From positions 1 to 64,000 of the forward strand of contig NZ_JACJOX010000008.1 of the NCBI RefSeq assembly GCF_014695775.1: a stretch of DNA of 64,000 nucleotides, in the 5' to 3' direction. The DNA is from Leptolyngbya sp. FACHB-60. GTDB lineage: Bacteria > Cyanobacteriota > Cyanobacteriia > Phormidesmidales > Phormidesmidaceae. The notes beneath the pieces were generated by a model. The model saw only the letters and a list, made by a program, of their open reading frames with translations. It searched no databases and was not told the DNA's origin. The translations under genes were made by a program, and so were the position numbers. This document shows, piece after piece, positions 30,014 through 36,777 of this stretch. Position 1 is the first letter of the stretch. The number at the start of each line of letters is the position of its first letter.

Positions 30014-30084
30014 GCTGCTGATGTAAAGCCTCTCTCAATTCCCTACTATTGTTCTATGACCGCTCAGCTCTGGGAGTCTTCTCT

Positions 30085-30693
30085 ATGACTCAGACCTCAT
30101 CGTCGCTGATACTTGGCGTTGACGAATTTCTCACCCGCTATAGCAATAACCCCCGCTATGAACTGGCAGATGGAGAACTGATTGACATGGAACCTACCGG
30201 CTTCCACGAAACTACTGCCGGAAAAGTTGCCAGCCAGCTCAGCATTGAAATTGATCGCCAGGGTCATCAGTGGGTGATTCCTCGTACTTGTTTGCTGCGT
30301 CCTTTTGCCGATATTGCTACGGCTCGCCGCCCGGATGTTGTGGTGCTCGATGAACCAGCCCTGGTACATGAGCCTCTGTGGGAACGAGAGCCTGTGATTA
30401 CCCTGGGCACTTCGGTAAAGCTGGTTGTGGAGGTGGTGAGCACGAATTGGGAAACAGACTATGCTCGCAAGGTAGAAGAGTATGCCCTGTTTGGCATTCC
30501 AGAATATTGGATTGTGGACTATCGGGGTTTGGGAGGGCGGGTGTTTATTGGCAGCCCTAAGCAGCCGACGTTTACGGTGTGTCGGTTGGTTGGCGAAGAC
30601 TATCAACAACAGCAGTATCGACTGGGTGAAACGATTGATTCGCCATTGTTGCCTCAGCTAACGCTACGGCTGGATAATGTTATGCCACGGTAG
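30085..30693 (+). CDS. Uma2 family (DUF820) restriction-endonuclease-fold protein
   Basis: About 202 residues from ATG 30085 (MTQTSSSLILGVDEFLTRYS). The PD-(D/E)XK-like core shows RRPDVVVLDEPALV (catalytic D) and VKLVVEVVSTNWETDYARK (E-V-x-S), then EEYALFGIPEYWIVDYR. Uma2 genes are extremely abundant in cyanobacteria and are thought to be nucleases of mobile or defensive origin; a function is not established. The neighbouring DUF433 remnant and the AT-rich genes beyond mark the start of an accessory segment. Confidence 0.85.
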   Translation: MTQTSSSLILGVDEFLTRYSNNPRYELADGELIDMEPTGFHETTAGKVASQLSIEIDRQGHQWVIPRTCLLRPFADIATARRPDVVVLDEPALVHEPLWEREPVITLGTSVKLVVEVVSTNWETDYARKVEEYALFGIPEYWIVDYRGLGGRVFIGSPKQPTFTVCRLVGEDYQQQQYRLGETIDSPLLPQLTLRLDNVMPR

Positions 30694-30735
30694 GCTGGAC
30701 AGTAATTGTGGGGTGAGCGGTGTTAGGCGATCGCT

Positions 30736-30934
30736 CTAGCCCACTGCTAGCCACGCGGCATACTGTAGCGATTGTTGAATATCTTCAAGTTTTAGGTAAG
30801 GATAATCTTCAATAAAGGCTTCTGGCATTGGCCACTAGGTTCAAAACTAATAAGACAGGAACCCGCATGCCGCGAATGCAGGCTTGCCCTGCCATGATTT
30901 TGGGGTCGAAGGTAATGCGATCGAAGCCTAGCAT
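30736..30934 (-). pseudogene. Frameshifted DUF433 antitoxin-like gene
   Basis: From the minus-strand ATG at 30934 the frame reads MLGFDRITFDPKIMAGQACI then RGMRVPVLLVLNLVAN, the start of a DUF433 protein. A short deletion just after shifts the frame, which then resumes as MPEAFIEDYPYLKLEDIQQS and LQYAAWLAVG before a stop at 30736. DUF433 proteins are usually antitoxins paired with a PIN-like DUF5615 toxin; no toxin gene is seen next to it. The rest of the gap up to 31110 is AT-rich without a recognised feature. Confidence 0.75.
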
Positions 30935-31110
30935 GGCTTTACTCCTGTCCGTTATTCAGGCCTGGAATAGAGCGACTCATTAATCAACTCTTAATTGTTT
31001 GAGACTGCCATAATAATATCTACATTCAACTGACTAATTGGTGAGGCTTACGCTGTTCACATACAAAGCGATCACTTTAACAGGTGATATTCACCATGCT
31101 CATCATGAGT

Positions 31111-31548
31111 TCATGACAGGCCAGTAGAGCCAAATCCTCCCTCATTTCTTAATGTTTGGGCTAACTCATCCACCTCCTCAACATCAACGAAAATCACTGG
31201 TTTGATTACCATTTGAGCAATTCTCATACCTTTCCTAATATGAAAGCTTGTTTTACCATGGTTTATTAGAATGACGCCAATTTCACCTCGATAGCCCTCA
31301 TCTATAGTGCCCGGGGTGTTTAGGATAGTAATTGAGTGCTTTAATGCTAAGCCACTTCGAGGTCGGATTTGAGCTTCTGTTGCTGATGGCAGTTCTATCG
31401 AAATGCCAGTATGAATGAGCTGAGTTTCACCAGGTGCGATTTCAACCTCGTCAATCGAACATAAATCCATCCCCGCGTCATTTTTATGGGCGTAAGAAGG
31501 AATAATAGCGTCTTCGGAAAGCTTTTTGATCTTGATTTTCATAGTCAA
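31111..31548 (-). CDS. dut: dUTP diphosphatase
   Basis: A 145-residue trimeric-type dUTPase hydrolysing dUTP to dUMP. All five motifs are present: DAGMDLCS (1), [13 protein letters not shown] (2), [17 protein letters not shown] (3), GMRIAQMVI (4) and the flexible-tail GGFGSTG (5). The gene is AT-rich compared with its surroundings and lies 38 bp downstream of a dCTP-deaminase-like membrane protein on the same strand, so the two form an apparent operon of related folds. It could be a housekeeping enzyme or part of a nucleotide-based accessory system. Confidence 0.92.
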
Positions 31549-31586
31549 ACTTCAACTTCAAATATTTCTATCAGGATGGAGAATTC

Positions 31587-32396
31587 TTAGCTTTTTCGTC
31601 TGATATCAGCTACTACAATAGCGAATAGAGCTCCTAGAAGAGCCGGAACAGCTTTATCGGTGAAGAATGTAAAACGTTGGCTCAAAGAAGAAGTACTCAG
31701 ATAACTTCCAACACCTATTAGAAAAATAATGATTAAATATGGCAAAAGTAAGCGTAGATTTTGCGACCATCTCGAATAGGAGCTTCTTAGTTTTATATAG
31801 GTTTCACTTTCTTTTAATTTTCTCTCCAAAGGTTCTTTTTCTTTTCTAAAGTCTTCTCGAAGCCATTCAAGATCTCCTTCATCATTCCGAGCCATGTTCT
31901 CAAACATTCCACGACGCGCTGGAGTATTGTCATGAACTTCTTGATACCTGCTGGTCGCTTTCGATCTTAAATAGTAGAAGGTAACCGAAACGAAAGTATG
32001 TGCTCGCTTTAGCTTTATCGGTTGACTAGAAAGATTGTGCAATGCAATGAAAGATGTACCTAAAAATGTGGGATCAAGTGTAGTTCCAATATGTCCTAGG
32101 CCTTTAGATACTAAGCTAACCTTAGAGTGATAAGTTCCAGCTATTTGAGGCGAAACCCATATAGACTCATCTGTTGCAACAATAACAGTTGATTTTGAAG
32201 GAATAGTAATTTCTTTTGCTATAGAATCATAACATTTCTCGTGCTCCCCTCCTGGAGTGTCGGGTATTTTGTATGCAAACTGGCCAACAGTAAAGTTATA
32301 GCTCGCACCTTTTATGTTTTCTCTATTAAAAGGGTATATCAATATATTTCCCTTAATTAGTTCTCTTTCAATATCAGTATTACTCAAAGCAGACAT
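31587..32396 (-). CDS. Membrane-anchored dCTP-deaminase-like protein, active site degenerate
   Basis: A 269-residue protein. Residues 1-145 follow the Dcd/dUTPase fold: NIKGASYNFTVGQ matches the 'GAS-x-D' strand, and SKVSLVSKGLGHIGTTLDPT then FLGTSFIALHN parallels 'GRSSLARLGL...DPG...VLEF'. The residues needed for deamination are replaced: the catalytic Glu position is Ala118, and the Arg-Ser loop is altered. A charged coiled-coil stretch (about 170-205) leads to two hydrophobic segments (about 213-232 and 249-264), an unusual membrane anchor for this family. It is AT-rich and precedes dut. Nucleotide sensing at the membrane is my inference; no function is known. Confidence 0.6.
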   Translation of the reverse strand: MSALSNTDIERELIKGNILIYPFNRENIKGASYNFTVGQFAYKIPDTPGGEHEKCYDSIAKEITIPSKSTVIVATDESIWVSPQIAGTYHSKVSLVSKGLGHIGTTLDPTFLGTSFIALHNLSSQPIKLKRAHTFVSVTFYYLRSKATSRYQEVHDNTPARRGMFENMARNDEGDLEWLREDFRKEKEPLERKLKESETYIKLRSSYSRWSQNLRLLLPYLIIIFLIGVGSYLSTSSLSQRFTFFTDKAVPALLGALFAIVVADIRRKS

Positions 32397-32828
32397 AACA
32401 TTTCGCAGGTTGCATTATTCGAAGCACATAATATCATTACACAAAATATGAGGAATGTAGGTAGGCAGTGCTGATCATTTATCCTCCAAGCTCTGAAAAT
32501 ATTCTCAAGTTAATACACGCTCATAACTAGAAATACAAGACTGGCTTTGTCCTGTTTTACCAATACTTTTTTATCGCTGTCCGCCCGATCGCAAAATTTC
32601 CGCACAGCAATCTCGCAATCGGGAAACGCCAGGGGTGCGATCGACTCTGCCTCATAGAGCTTTTGCTCCACACCAATCCCCTACTCCACCGAGGCACTAA
32701 CAGAGATTGAAGCCGAAGTCCCTGCGGTAGAGTGAGGAACGGTCATGGGAATGATCGGTTTCTCCAATCAAGCAGTGGTAAGTCAGGCTTCTAGATTCTC
32801 TGAGAGAGCCCAGAAGCCTGGTTTAGCG
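32397..32828. other. Intergenic stretch with an inverted repeat
   Basis: No gene recognised in this 432-bp interval. CAGGCTTCT at 32784-32792 and AGAAGCCTG at 32812-32820 form a perfect 9-bp inverted repeat just past the stop codon of the small minus-strand gene at 32829 and could terminate it. The AT-rich left part presumably holds the promoter of the dcd-like/dut operon. Confidence 0.45.
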
Positions 32829-33092
32829 CTAACTCAACTGTCGATGCCGCAGCAGGTAACTAAACACTTCCCCCTGCTCTGGCGTAATCAAAATCCCCGA
32901 GTCGGGAATGGTAAACAGGCGGCTCCACTCTAGGCGCTCGGCGTAGTTCAGCAGATGCAGGTGATTAATCGCCCCTTGCACCCCCTCGGGTGAGCCAATT
33001 ACCAGATGGCGCAATCGCTCGCGCCCTGGCTGGGCATCCGGATTTGCCAGCAGCAGCGGATTGGTCGCCTCCCGGTTCTGGGCAGACGACAC
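32829..33092 (-). CDS. Small conserved cyanobacterial protein without a clear native start
   Basis: About 87 residues if begun at GTG 33092. The conserved part starts near NPDAQPGRERLRHLVIGSPE and continues NHLHLLNYAERLEWSRLF then TPEQGEVFSYLLRHR. Short proteins with the PGRxRLRHLxIGSPE signature are common single genes in cyanobacteria; I know no function. No ATG lies close to the conserved start. The open frame runs on upstream to 33665, but that part reads through a structured-RNA-like element and is not protein-like, so the 5-prime end may have been displaced by insertion. Confidence 0.55.
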   Translation of the reverse strand: MSSAQNREATNPLLLANPDAQPGRERLRHLVIGSPEGVQGAINHLHLLNYAERLEWSRLFTIPDSGILITPEQGEVFSYLLRHRQLS

Positions 33093-33600
33093 CAAATATG
33101 GCAAACACAACATAATCGGGTTCCTTCCGAATGTAACAACGGGTAAGAAACCCAAAAACTTGGCCGCCCCAGACATGTGCAGTTCAGGACGGCCAGGTAA
33201 AATCACCTTAGCCTCCGAGACAGCGACTCCTGTCGACGAGGTTAGCCGCTGGTTGGTGTTGGTAGCACCTTCCAGTGGCGTTAGACCAAATTTTTGGGAA
33301 GCGCAGACTGCACGCACACAGCCATAGCTCAGTAAAATACCCCATTGGAACCCCCAAATCAAGTCAAAATCGCTACCTCCTGAGAAACCGGGTGTAATGT
33401 TGCGACTGCACAGCATTGTCCGCGCGTGACCGTCGCCCTTGGCGCTTCTGCGCCCTGGACTAGATGACGCTGGAGCGTCGGCGATACGTCTCGACGCTAT
33501 AGCATCGAGACGATGAAAACATTCACGGGCAGGACATGGGGCGAGCGGATTAGCTCCAGAGTCCATACAATTCATGCCCAAACCTTTCCCTATTCCGAGG
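33093..33600 (-). ncRNA. Structured RNA-like element, possibly a solo HEARO/omega RNA
   Basis: Read on the minus strand, this segment has several clean helices in a row: GGTG/CACC near 33265; CCTC..GACAG/CTGTC..GAGG at about 33205-33245; TGGCCGTCC pairing with GGGGCGGCCA near 33160-33205; and GGGTTTC/GGAACCC near 33115-33155. It ends just before an ATG at about 33111. The arrangement and some conserved strings recall HEARO RNAs, the guide RNAs of IscB/IsrB transposon nucleases, which also occur without the protein. No IscB gene is present. Identification is from memory and needs a covariance search. Confidence 0.4.
33425..33512. repeat. Cluster of three short hairpins
   Basis: Three adjacent palindromes: GGCGC-TTCT-GCGCC at about 33440-33453, GACGCT-GG-AGCGTC at about 33467-33480, and CGTCTCGA (33487-33494) with TCGAGACG (33505-33512). 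Such tandem 'GACGCTGGAGCGTC' hairpins are frequent intergenic repeats in filamentous cyanobacteria. Here they lie within the 5-prime part of the RNA-like element. Confidence 0.6.
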
Positions 33601-33663
33601 GATGCAGCTTCAAATGAGCCATGAGACGCTAAGGGCGTTGCAGTGTGGTTGTGATTGAAAGTC

Positions 33664-35652
33664 ATGGAACGTCTATTTAAGCCTGAAATATCGAATGAGT
33701 TCTCCCCAAACTCTCAGGCAAAAAGCAGAAGCTATGAAGATATTTTAATTGCTGGGCAGCCACTGCAAGTTTCCCTGACCACGTTGGCCCCTTCAGAGTG
33801 TTCCGTTGTCAGCCTCAGACCCCAGGGAGAAATCAAAGTTTATTCTGCGGCAAATCAGCAGATTGATGTATCAACATCGGTTTTGCTTGAGCAAGTTCCA
33901 ACCCTTTCCTTGCTAGCCAAAACCTTTAGCGATCGCCTTAACGATCGTTCCTTAGAAATCACGTTTCTAGACGATACAGGTAGTCAGCTGAGCCAAATTC
34001 AGCTTCAGCTAACCTGTCTTCGGGTCTGTTTAGATGTAGATGCAAATCGAGATGGAATTATTGACGACAATAACCCTCACAAGGGAACTTGGCAGTGGGG
34101 GCGTAATGGTAATGGGGCAATCTTAATAGTCAACACCGATCGCGACCATATTCATTCTGATAGTCAGCATAATGGCGAGATCAAAAGACTACTGAATTTG
34201 AAAGATACCAGCTTTATGGTTATTCGCAGGGCTGGCTTAAGTGATCTACCCCCTGGATGCGAGCTTTACCTGTCCGTCAGCCAAGATACGGCCCAACGAA
34301 TTTGCATTTATGGCGAGCTGGATAAAATGGGCTATGAGCTGATTGGGCCAGAGAAACCAGCGGCAAAAATCAGAAATACCGATCGGGATATTCTGCTGGC
34401 CATAAAAGGGCTCAGTTATCCAGATGTTGATTTTGATGGGTTGATTGAGATTACGTTAAGCCTGGCAAAAGATGGAGAAAATCTTTACAGCGATCGCGTC
34501 ATGTTCCGAGTCGCTCCCTGGATGATAACTCCAAACACGTTATCTCCACTGATGGTCTTTGTGTCTCGCCTATCGGAGGGGGAGAACGAAGATTTTATTG
34601 AGGATCTGAGGAAAGTTGTGGCTAAAGCCGAGGCACAGCTCGATCCAGTTCCCTATGAGTATCACAAAGACGATCCCTGGATGAGAGATGAAATTGAAAT
34701 CGGGTATACTCAAGCACCTGGGAAATTCATCCATGTTGTGCTAGATTCACCTCGCGATGGCGGACTTGATCACCTCACTAACCGTCAGATTATAGGCAGT
34801 GACTTTGGCTATATAGTTCGCAAAAGTCGCCATTCAGCCACTAAACTAGACTCTTTTGGAAATTTAGAGGTTTCTCCGCCCGTTACGGCAAGAGGAGTAA
34901 CTTACCCGTTTGGACGTTTGATATTTGGAGGAACGCGTCCAGAGATCATTCCGGAGCCGCGTCGAAAGTTAAAAGTTTTGCGAGACTTTTTCTTTGCTCA
35001 GAAAATTCAGGCCCCCTTCGAGATCTTTTCAGATTGGCTGAGCGTCGGGCATGTTGACGAATTCATGAATTTTGTTCCTGCTCCTAATCCGAAAGGTTTT
35101 AAGCTGGTTCTTGCCAGCCCTGAGAAGTGTTATGACCTGCTTAAAGGGTTGCGCCAAAAAGGCCACGGGCAGGCCCTACTGCGACAGGGCAAGCAAATTG
35201 ACGACAAGCCTGCCGATACCAGCGTGGCAGATGTGCTTGATGATCCAGATCTGGCCCGTCAAAACCAGCGCTTTCAGGAGCACATTACCTGGAACCGAGA
35301 GGTTTTGAAGCAGGAATTAGGTTTGGGTGAAGACGATATTGTTGATTTGCCTGCCTTGTTTGAAGAGGAGGACGATGGCCGAGCAATATCTTTTTTCCCA
35401 AACATGGTCAACATGCTGGTACTCCAGCAGCAGCTGGCGATTCCTAAACCCTTTGGCCCCCAGGTCGAGGTCCAATGCCAGTTTGAAAAGCATGTTATGG
35501 GGTTGTTAGAACCGTTGGGTTTAGTCTGTCACTTTATCGATGATTGGGATACGTATTTTCGCGATGGTGGAGAAATTCACTGCGGCACTAACACCAGCCG
35601 ACAACCCTACAGTCAAAAATGGTGGGAGATCGAACCTACATTCTTTAACTAA
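33664..35652 (+). CDS. Peptidylarginine deiminase, vertebrate PAD-type
   Basis: About 662 residues from ATG 33664, almost the same length as human PAD4. PADs convert protein arginine to citrulline using calcium. Numbering from the TTG at 33655, the PAD-middle calcium-binding region reads LDVDANRDGIIDDNNPHKG (126-144) and GAILIVNTDRD. The catalytic domain has DPWMRDEIEIGY (Asp345), SDWLSVGHVDEF (His466, Asp468) and GEIHCGTNTSRQP (Cys643), matching Asp350, His471, Asp473 and Cys645 of PAD4. No signal peptide is seen. Cyanobacterial PADs are known and have been proposed as the source of animal PADs. Targets here are unknown. Confidence 0.95.
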   Translation: MERLFKPEISNEFSPNSQAKSRSYEDILIAGQPLQVSLTTLAPSECSVVSLRPQGEIKVYSAANQQIDVSTSVLLEQVPTLSLLAKTFSDRLNDRSLEITFLDDTGSQLSQIQLQLTCLRVCLDVDANRDGIIDDNNPHKGTWQWGRNGNGAILIVNTDRDHIHSDSQHNGEIKRLLNLKDTSFMVIRRAGLSDLPPGCELYLSVSQDTAQRICIYGELDKMGYELIGPEKPAAKIRNTDRDILLAIKGLSYPDVDFDGLIEITLSLAKDGENLYSDRVMFRVAPWMITPNTLSPLMVFVSRLSEGENEDFIEDLRKVVAKAEAQLDPVPYEYHKDDPWMRDEIEIGYTQAPGKFIHVVLDSPRDGGLDHLTNRQIIGSDFGYIVRKSRHSATKLDSFGNLEVSPPVTARGVTYPFGRLIFGGTRPEIIPEPRRKLKVLRDFFFAQKIQAPFEIFSDWLSVGHVDEFMNFVPAPNPKGFKLVLASPEKCYDLLKGLRQKGHGQALLRQGKQIDDKPADTSVADVLDDPDLARQNQRFQEHITWNREVLKQELGLGEDDIVDLPALFEEEDDGRAISFFPNMVNMLVLQQQLAIPKPFGPQVEVQCQFEKHVMGLLEPLGLVCHFIDDWDTYFRDGGEIHCGTNTSRQPYSQKWWEIEPTFFN

Positions 35653-35993
35653 TGTTACAACATGCTTTAGATCACACTTTGCGATCGCGAATCCTGATGA
35701 ACGCTTGCGAAAATGGGCGAGAAAAAGTGGAGAAATTAGAAAAAAGGAGATTTAACAACTTTAGAAACTAAGCGGGCAGTTCAAATCGATCAATCTTTAT
35801 CTCTGTCAGATCAGAAGGAAGGAAGGACGGCTGATTTAACGTCTAGTGAAACTAGCCTACTCTAGAATTCCAGTGTAAATTTAAGCAGCCTTTGACAGGC
35901 TATATTCAATGAGGCAACCCATAATATAGAGTCGGTGGTCGCCCCCAAGGCTGACCACTTCTACCACCAGCAACTGTTTAGAGGGGCGAGGTG
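35653..35993. other. Intergenic stretch after the deiminase gene
   Basis: No gene recognised in 341 bp. It contains a HIP1-like site, a purine-rich run (35700-35755) and an inverted repeat GTGGTC (35935-35940) with GACCAC (35953-35958), which may be a weak terminator for the UPF0175 gene at its right. Confidence 0.4.
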
Positions 35994-36242
35994 TTACTGA
36001 CGACGGGCATAGTCCAGATTTTCTTCAAGTTCAGATTCTGAATAATGTCGGACGATATGGCGATCGCTTAGAAGCTGACTGAATTGGCGATGGTCAAGGC
36101 TGGCAAGTTCACGGGCCTTGCCAAAGGACAGCAGCTCTTGGGCATAAAGGGCCAGGGCAAGTTCTTTCAAAAGCTCTTCCTCGATGCGGCTCTCGAGCAA
36201 ACGAATGAATTGAATAATGGATTCGGGAATGGACAACTGCAT
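35994..36242 (-). CDS. UPF0175-type small protein, antitoxin-like
   Basis: About 82 residues from Met at 36242 (MQLSIPESIIQFIRLLESRI), the usual UPF0175 start; an ATG at 36257 would add five residues. The middle reads ELLKELALALYAQELLSFGK followed by ARELASLDHRQFSQLLSDR, the helix-turn-helix-like family core. UPF0175 proteins are often antitoxins, but no toxin gene is evident beside it. Its start codon overlaps that of the divergent kinase-like gene within the four bases CATG at 36240-36243. Confidence 0.75.
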   Translation of the reverse strand: MQLSIPESIIQFIRLLESRIEEELLKELALALYAQELLSFGKARELASLDHRQFSQLLSDRHIVRHYSESELEENLDYARRQ

Positions 36243-36777
36243 GGCACGAATCTCCATCGTTGGCCCAACGGGATCAGGTAAAACAACTCTAGCGCGACAG
36301 GTTGCTCAGCGCTGCCTGCTCTCCCACGTTGAGCTAGATGCCTTGCAGTGGGAGCCAAATTGGACCCCTGCGGAGCCTCAAGTCTTTCGCGATCGGGTAA
36401 CGGCGGCGTTGAGCGGCGATCGCTGGGTTGTAGACGGCAACTACAGCGCCGTGCGCGACATTGTTTGGGGCAGAGACGACACGGTCGTATTTCTGGATTA
36501 CCCGTTTGGGCTGGTGATGGGGCGGCTTTTGCGGCGCACCTGGCGACGATCGCTCCACCGAGAAGAGCTTTGGAACGGCAATCGAGAGACGTTTCGCCAA
36601 TCGTTTTTCAGCCGCGACTCAATTCTGGTCTGGCTGTTGCGCACCTACTGGAAAAAGCGTAAGCAGTATCCGGCCCTGTTTCGGCAGTCAGAGTACGCTC
36701 ACTTATCTCCTGTGCATCTGCGATCGCCCAAAGCAGCCGAGAAATGGCTGCTCTCCTATAAGCAACATTTGCTGTGA
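36241..36777 (+). CDS. P-loop kinase of the adenylate-kinase/FlaR-like type
   Basis: About 178 residues from ATG 36241 (MARISIVGPTGSGKTTLARQ). Walker A GPTGSGKTT is at 8-16; ELDALQWEPNW and DRWVVDGNYSAVRDIVWGRD are the substrate-binding/LID-like blocks of the 'topology modulation' small-kinase family; then VVFLDYPFG is Walker B-like. Basic C-terminal half. Family members are poorly characterised nucleotide or small-molecule kinases. It is head-to-head with the UPF0175 gene with no intergenic DNA, so each promoter must lie inside the other gene. A strong terminator lies at its stop codon. Confidence 0.78.
   Translation: MARISIVGPTGSGKTTLARQVAQRCLLSHVELDALQWEPNWTPAEPQVFRDRVTAALSGDRWVVDGNYSAVRDIVWGRDDTVVFLDYPFGLVMGRLLRRTWRRSLHREELWNGNRETFRQSFFSRDSILVWLLRTYWKKRKQYPALFRQSEYAHLSPVHLRSPKAAEKWLLSYKQHLL

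Follow-up and report, generated by a model that had tools for sequence, protein, structure and literature searches.

The peptidylarginine deiminase (PAD) of Leptolyngbya sp. FACHB-60 is probably a cytosolic and catalytically intact three-domain enzyme that was acquired horizontally and still uses calcium, with a remodelled calcium gate and a lowered calcium need. The gene lies at 33664..35652 on the forward strand of the window, the 64,000-nucleotide stretch of contig NZ_JACJOX010000008.1 that was analysed. It runs from the ATG at 33664 to the stop codon at 35652 and encodes a three-domain PADI of 662 aa, which is a new member of the published three-domain cyanobacterial PAD group. The PAD enzyme family and its cyanobacteria-animal link are already known (PMC8826395), and the cyanobacterial connection of animal PADs that had been raised in a preliminary description of the window is supported. 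New, as far as checked, are an R-type clade with a replaced Ca1 ligand, the occurrence of this clade in a Leptolyngbya-type genus, and the strong indications that the gene moved between cyanobacterial orders.

The window encodes a full-length three-domain PAD

The window PAD matched the Pfam families PF03068 (E 8.9e-150) and PF08527 (E 8.3e-42) far over the cut-off, with PAD_M at residues 120-268 and PAD_C at residues 274-655. In a sequence search against solved structures, the first match was human PAD2 (531 bits, residues 27-659), followed by PAD1, PAD3, PAD4 and PAD6. Identity to human PAD2 and PAD4 was ~41-43% over the whole length. AlphaFold2 gave a poor model from 17 close sequences (pLDDT 57) and a good one from 56 sequences (pLDDT 87.7, pTM 0.84). 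When the good model was compared to the PDB using Foldseek, the best matches were PAD4 and PAD2 over the full length, at TM 0.80-0.87 (about 0.85). The Pfam, PAD2 and fold matches all bear out the initial identification of a full-length vertebrate-type PAD.

The N-terminal Ig-like domain, at about residues 20-119, gave no Pfam match to PAD_N; in the relative G428 the match was weak (PF08526, E 0.008). This agrees with the degenerate PAD_N reported for cyanobacterial PADIs (PMC8826395). Residues 20-119 form a confident beta domain in the AlphaFold2 model, and together with the full-length alignment to PAD2 and PAD4 this domain accounts for the PAD_N of a three-domain PADI (clade Ai, Cummings 2021). 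In the phylogeny, which had been proposed as a check, the window PAD grouped with the three-domain PADs of cyanobacteria and the two-domain PADs fell outside this group, with support of 100/100.

The catalytic residues are intact and the gene is under purifying selection

Alignment gave D342, H463, D465 and C640 as the catalytic set of the window PAD. On the forward strand, the codons of Arg341 and catalytic Asp342 are at 34684..34689, those of His463 and Asp465 with Val464 between them at 35050..35058, and that of the nucleophile Cys640 at 35581..35583. The same residues had been listed as Asp345, His466, Asp468 and Cys643. All are present as described, the numbers being shifted by three because they were counted from a TTG at 33655, three codons 5' of the ATG. 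The four residues are invariant in 42/42 three-domain cyanobacterial rows of the alignment.

Comparison of the window PAD to its nearest relative, from G484 (79% identical), gave a dN of 0.12 and a dS of 0.80 (dN/dS ~0.15), with differences at codon positions 1, 2 and 3 of 15, 9 and 34%. Since third-position changes dominate and dN is far below dS, the open reading frame is not a chance one, and this indicates that the gene is intact and under purifying selection. That the acquired gene is decaying or without function, or encodes a PADI6-like pseudoenzyme, is highly unlikely. This would be in keeping with the patchy distribution of these genes, with the relative in G005 that is broken by several stops and with the erosion of calcium sites, but not with an open frame, a complete catalytic set, the low dN/dS and a confident full-length fold.

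The calcium sites are partly conserved

The calcium ligands of PAD4 are Q349, E353 and E411 for Ca1; E351, D369 and N373 for Ca2; N153, D155, D157, D165, D176 and D179 for Ca3; D155, D157, D179 and D388 for Ca4; and D168 and E252 for Ca5 (PMC5445078, PMC3559651). At Ca1 the window PAD retains E345, F398, L401 and E402, and the side-chain ligand (PAD2 Q350, PAD4 Q349) aligned with Arg341. All Ca2 positions are retained, with an aspartate at the position of PAD4 N373 as in PAD2, and the Ca4 calcium switch D389 is retained as D380. At Ca3 one aspartate is certainly gone (PAD2 D177 to N178), the acidic loop around PAD2 166-171 being too variable for secure alignment. The Ca5 ligand E253 of PAD2 is K248. 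The Ca6-like loop, D124-V-D126-A-N128-R-D130 (34033..34053, forward strand), has Asn128 at the position of PAD2 D125 and carries E131D. The active-site gate R347 of PAD2 is Pro338. The preliminary description had stated that the calcium-site segments are present. This is only partly right: it holds for the Ca1 acids, Ca2 and D380, but several individual ligands are replaced (PAD2 Q350R, E253K, D177N and D125N). Full conservation of calcium site 1 is a stated property of PADIs, though not one that defines the clade, and the window PAD departs from it by Q350 to R341. Because both the tree and the architecture place the protein in clade Ai, this departure is a variant inside that clade.

An R-type clade carries arginine at the Ca1 ligand

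Q350R was present in 23 of the 42 three-domain rows (two of the 23 are the same protein). All of these rows fall into one clade with support of 100/99, corresponding to one change on the tree. Glutamine was found at this position in the other 19 three-domain rows (Q-type), in PAD2 and in 19/19 two-domain cyanobacterial PADs examined. The only columns nearly fixed for different residues in R-type and Q-type PADs are 350, 642 and 652 (PAD2 numbers); column 350 adjoins the catalytic D351, and 642 and 652 are five residues either side of C647. E253 is changed to K, R or Q in 13/23 rows, D177 is changed in 10/23 and N154 in 6/23, in the R clade only; E253, D177, D180 and N154 are invariant across the 19 Q-type rows. 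The gate arginine is also lost outside the R clade: seven Q-type PADs combine P347 with Q350. G143, which we take to be the genome of the assayed Cyanothece 8801 strain, is among the Q-type rows. The D389 switch is Arg, Gln or Ser in the three-domain PADs L058, L059, L060 and L061 of genus-mates and L035 of G008; in the four genus-mates it is R or Q. No assay of any R-type PAD was found in the literature.

One explanation of these data is that the window PAD is an ordinary calcium-dependent three-domain enzyme like the assayed cyanoPADI, with a neutral Arg341 and with Ca1 held by E345, E402 and main-chain groups. The conserved acidic Ca1 ligands, Ca2 ligands and D380 are consistent with this, as is the full calcium dependence of the tested cyanobacterial relative (PMC8826395). 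However, a Ca1 ligand that is strict in animal, Q-type and two-domain PADs was replaced once and the replacement kept in 23/23 rows, and two linked changes around Cys640 are seen in the R-type rows. We regard an ordinary enzyme as possible but somewhat doubtful.

The PAD gene was acquired horizontally, probably from another cyanobacterial order

Three-domain PADs are sparse, occurring in 8/386 genomes across the phylum, one of them as a broken gene. They were found in 5 of the 28 genomes searched in the Leptolyngbya-type genus and in one sister genus, and in 26 of the 218 genomes in the family of G340. The three-domain PAD of G005 (C5:4655-6565, L040) has several stops and broken frames, which represents gene loss in progress. 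In the literature, three-domain PADIs were assigned to SPM and NX, the cyanobacteria that diverged later (PMC8826395).

GuaA of the window genome is 99% identical to that of G430 and 98% to that of G417, both of which are without a PAD, and 95-97% identical to those of four PAD-bearing genus-mates. Relative to the same mates, PmbA is 92-94%, CbiD 76-81% and PAD only 70-72% identical. A species tree of the three proteins grouped the window genome with G417 and G430 (100/99), followed by G428, G407, G413 and G429; this tree is trusted inside the genus only, and the CbiD proteins of G008 and the Calothrix genomes have diverged strongly and may represent another version of the protein. In the PAD tree, the four mates united and the window copy fell outside (100/100). 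An AU test rejected a grouping of the window copy with those of G428 and G407 (p 1.9e-82). In a wider PAD tree, the window copy grouped with that of G484, a member of another order, and with the mates. GC3 was 46% for the window PAD compared to 75% for guaA, and 53 to 70% for the PADs of the mates.

The PAD gene is in an accessory segment (30106..35976) that is absent from the nearest relative, G430, and has a GC content of ~46% compared to 54% for the window. The segment contains most of a Uma2 gene, dut, the dcd-like gene, a repeat copy and PAD. G430 is collinear with the window at 26.0-30.1 kb and at 36.0-48.4 kb, and neither PAD nor dut nor dcd separates these two parts in G430. G484, which has the closest PAD, has in common with the window only the PAD gene and 64 bp upstream. 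Since the identities, the tree conflict with the AU test, and the GC3 and synteny data agree, there is strong evidence that the window PAD is a single-gene horizontal acquisition from another cyanobacterial order. The initial placement of PAD in an accessory region is supported.

That the gene was inherited vertically in the genus and evolved fast in the window copy is very improbable. In a 26-row tree the window copy was sister to the PADs of the genus-mates (88/86), as it would be had the gene simply followed the genus, and that interpretation was abandoned in view of the species tree and the AU test. It conflicts with a PAD that is more divergent from the mates than GuaA, PmbA and CbiD are, with nearest relatives that have no PAD, with the rejected species-tree placement, with the closer copy in another order (79%) and with the GC3 of 46 versus 75. 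Transfer between cyanobacterial orders contradicts the literature, in which the PADI phylogeny of cyanobacteria was stated to mirror that of the species. It bears in this way on the published account of the origin of animal citrullination, in which the cyanobacterial gene tree was taken to follow the species tree and the three-domain form was assigned to the SPM and NX clades.

A DUF3368 gene and a glycogen phosphorylase gene are located beside the UPF0175 gene in G430, G417 and G428, and the window has neither of them here. A 50-bp stretch made up of the end of PAD and the next 36 bp matched the region upstream of glgP in G417 (84%). This is suggestive only: PAD may once have been just upstream of glgP, with glgP and the DUF3368 gene lost later here, or G417 may have lost PAD.

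The neighbouring genes do not form a module with PAD

The dUTPase (31111..31548) and the DCD-like protein (31587..32396), both on the reverse strand, are not linked to PAD elsewhere. The UPF0175 antitoxin-like gene (35994..36257, reverse strand; region 35977-36257) lacks the PIN-like DUF3368 partner gene that is next to it in G417, G430 and G428. Across 19 PAD loci no neighbour families were found in common, genus-mates excepted. No three-domain PAD was found in phage, plasmid or IMG/VR viral contigs, and PADLOC gave no match for PAD, dUTPase or DCD. PAD has neither a known or candidate defence match nor a conserved defence neighbourhood. The mobile or defence context that had been suggested from the dUTPase/Dcd-like pair and UPF0175 is not supported, because no neighbours are shared and no phage, plasmid or viral copy exists among those searched. 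The location of PAD in an accessory segment beside these genes would fit a defence or mobile module of PAD with dUTPase, DCD-like protein and UPF0175, but the three accompany PAD in no other genome and UPF0175 is ancestral backbone. Together with the negative PADLOC and contig searches, this makes such a module hardly credible. The transfer unit looks like a single gene.

The Uma2-family protein encoded at 30049-30693 of the window matched the PADLOC candidate PDC-S03 (E 1.9e-81), and its start falls at the left border of the segment that G430 lacks. An RNA-like element had also been described in this region; no Rfam match was found for it. It is likely the 0.5-kb repeat at 32827-33376, which is present in at least four copies in the genome (76-84% identical) and also in G417 (90%), and which has no Rfam or Pfam match.

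Other cyanobacterial PADs

Several unusual PADs were observed in other genomes. G399, of the same family as the window genome, encodes a 1116-aa protein (L062:7827-11174, reverse strand) in which PAD_M and PAD are fused to a ubiquitin-specific protease (PF00443, E 1e-25). It keeps the USP Cys box GLANLGNTCYLNS as well as the PAD motifs QDWMEIGF, GHVDE and HCATN; one would not expect a cyanobacterium to have a fusion of citrullinase and deubiquitinase. The two-domain PADs L017, L020, L022, L025, L026, L170, L172 and L174, mostly of family f11, have lost catalytic residues, with Cys changed to Ser or Asp and often His to Gln/Asn or Asp to Glu/Gly. These frames are open over 740-900 aa and have hydrophobic, signal-peptide-like N-termini, so that their sequences mark them as likely exported PAD pseudoenzymes. 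PADs of 944 aa with intact catalytic motifs, distinct from both common types, are encoded in two genomes of the family, G404 (L063:6802-9633, forward strand) and G399 (L064:7928-10759, forward strand).

Proposed mechanism and role

The arginine R347 covers the active site when this is empty, and Q350 is its partner and a Ca1 ligand; upon Ca2 binding, R347 swings outward, W348 moves inward and Q350 rotates to bind Ca1 (PMC11402830). Q349 of PAD4 is likewise a Ca1 ligand (PMC5445078), and alanine substitutions at the Ca1 and Ca2 sites leave PAD4 almost inactive (PMC3559651, PMC5445078). Because the window PAD carries Pro and Arg at positions 347 and 350, the R347/Q350 latch cannot work in the same way. 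We propose that the window PAD would convert peptidyl-arginine to citrulline through Cys640, His463, Asp342 and Asp465, and that it would still use calcium, given that it retains the Ca1 acids E345/E402, the Ca2 ligands and the switch residue D380. The calcium gate appears to be remodelled by the changes of R347 to Pro338 and Q350 to Arg341. Part of what Ca1 does is probably done by the guanidinium group of Arg341 instead. With its charge partly replacing Ca1, the enzyme would be active at lower calcium than animal PADs. The change in calcium requirement is a prediction. P. gingivalis PPAD is calcium-independent and has W127-T-R-D130 at the homologous catalytic Asp (PMC4487231), as read from the mutagenesis primers in that paper; the window PAD has W-M-R-D where PPAD has W-T-R-D.

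Q350R may instead weaken the enzyme, since Ca1-site alanine mutants of PAD4 lose activity, and Ca1 may still bind, since the acidic ligands E345 and E402 are invariant. It is conceivable, if not what we would expect, that the R branch swapped calcium for arginine, in which case Arg341 would replace both the Ca1 ligand and the R347/Q350 gate and citrullination would occur at resting calcium.

A strongly hydrophobic N-terminus is absent from three-domain PADs and present in most cyanobacterial two-domain PADs. The lack of a signal-peptide-like N-terminus suggests that the substrates are most likely cytosolic. For the window PAD, which we favour as a calcium-using enzyme with a remodelled gate, we infer activity, a lowered calcium requirement and cytosolic substrates. 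PAD functions in bacteria have been described as completely unknown (PMC9174705), and the earlier remark that the physiological targets in bacteria are unknown is still in line with that description. The role that we favour, at low confidence, would be broad deimination of cytosolic proteins upon calcium entry in stressed or damaged cells. That the substrate is cyanophycin, the arginine-aspartate storage polymer, rather than proteins is quite unlikely: its synthetase is encoded by 6/6 three-domain PAD carriers of the order, but this co-occurrence is uninformative because 52/65 genomes of the order have a synthetase over the cut-off, and the fold is of the protein endo-deiminase type.

These findings bear on how PADs, which need very high calcium in vitro, get switched on in cells. 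The natural series of Q-type, R-type and R-type with D389R offers a direct route to which ions are needed and to an arginine replacing Ca1, and R-type PADs could yield a low-calcium citrullinating tool enzyme.

Comparison with known systems

The window PAD resembles P. gingivalis PPAD in W-x-R-D at the first catalytic Asp and in deiminase chemistry. In contrast, PPAD belongs to a different family (PF04371 group), is secreted and has neither PAD_N nor PAD_M, whereas the window PAD matches PF03068 and PF08527 only and no PF04371 gene was found in the genome of the strain. The W-x-R-D likeness is not membership. Two-domain bacterial and fungal PADs have the PAD_C core and catalytic motif in common with the window PAD, but are 24-29% identical, are without PAD_N, have different Ca2/Ca4 motifs and, in most cyanobacterial cases, have hydrophobic, signal-peptide-like N-termini.

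Human PADI6 also shows natural loss of calcium ligands. Unlike the window PAD, which keeps these residues, PADI6 has lost the catalytic Cys as well as the Ca1 acids and shows no activity in vitro (PMC11402830). Animal PAD1-4, of which human PAD2 and PAD4 were compared, are similar in whole-length sequence (41-43%), fold, catalytic D/H/D/C, and acidic Ca1 and Ca2 ligands; the window PAD differs from them in lacking Ca1 Q350 and gate R347 and in its weakened Ca3, Ca5 and Ca6 ligand sets.

The three-domain cyanoPADI of Cyanothece sp. 8801 is a proven calcium-dependent citrullinating enzyme (Cummings et al. 2021, PMC8826395). The window PAD has the same three-domain architecture, catalytic residues, D389 switch, Ca2 site and cyanobacterial type of host. 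It differs in sequence (~53% identical to the G143 protein), carries Q350 to R, R347 to P and the Ca5 change E253 to K, and is found in a Leptolyngbya-type host that acquired it horizontally within the cyanobacteria.
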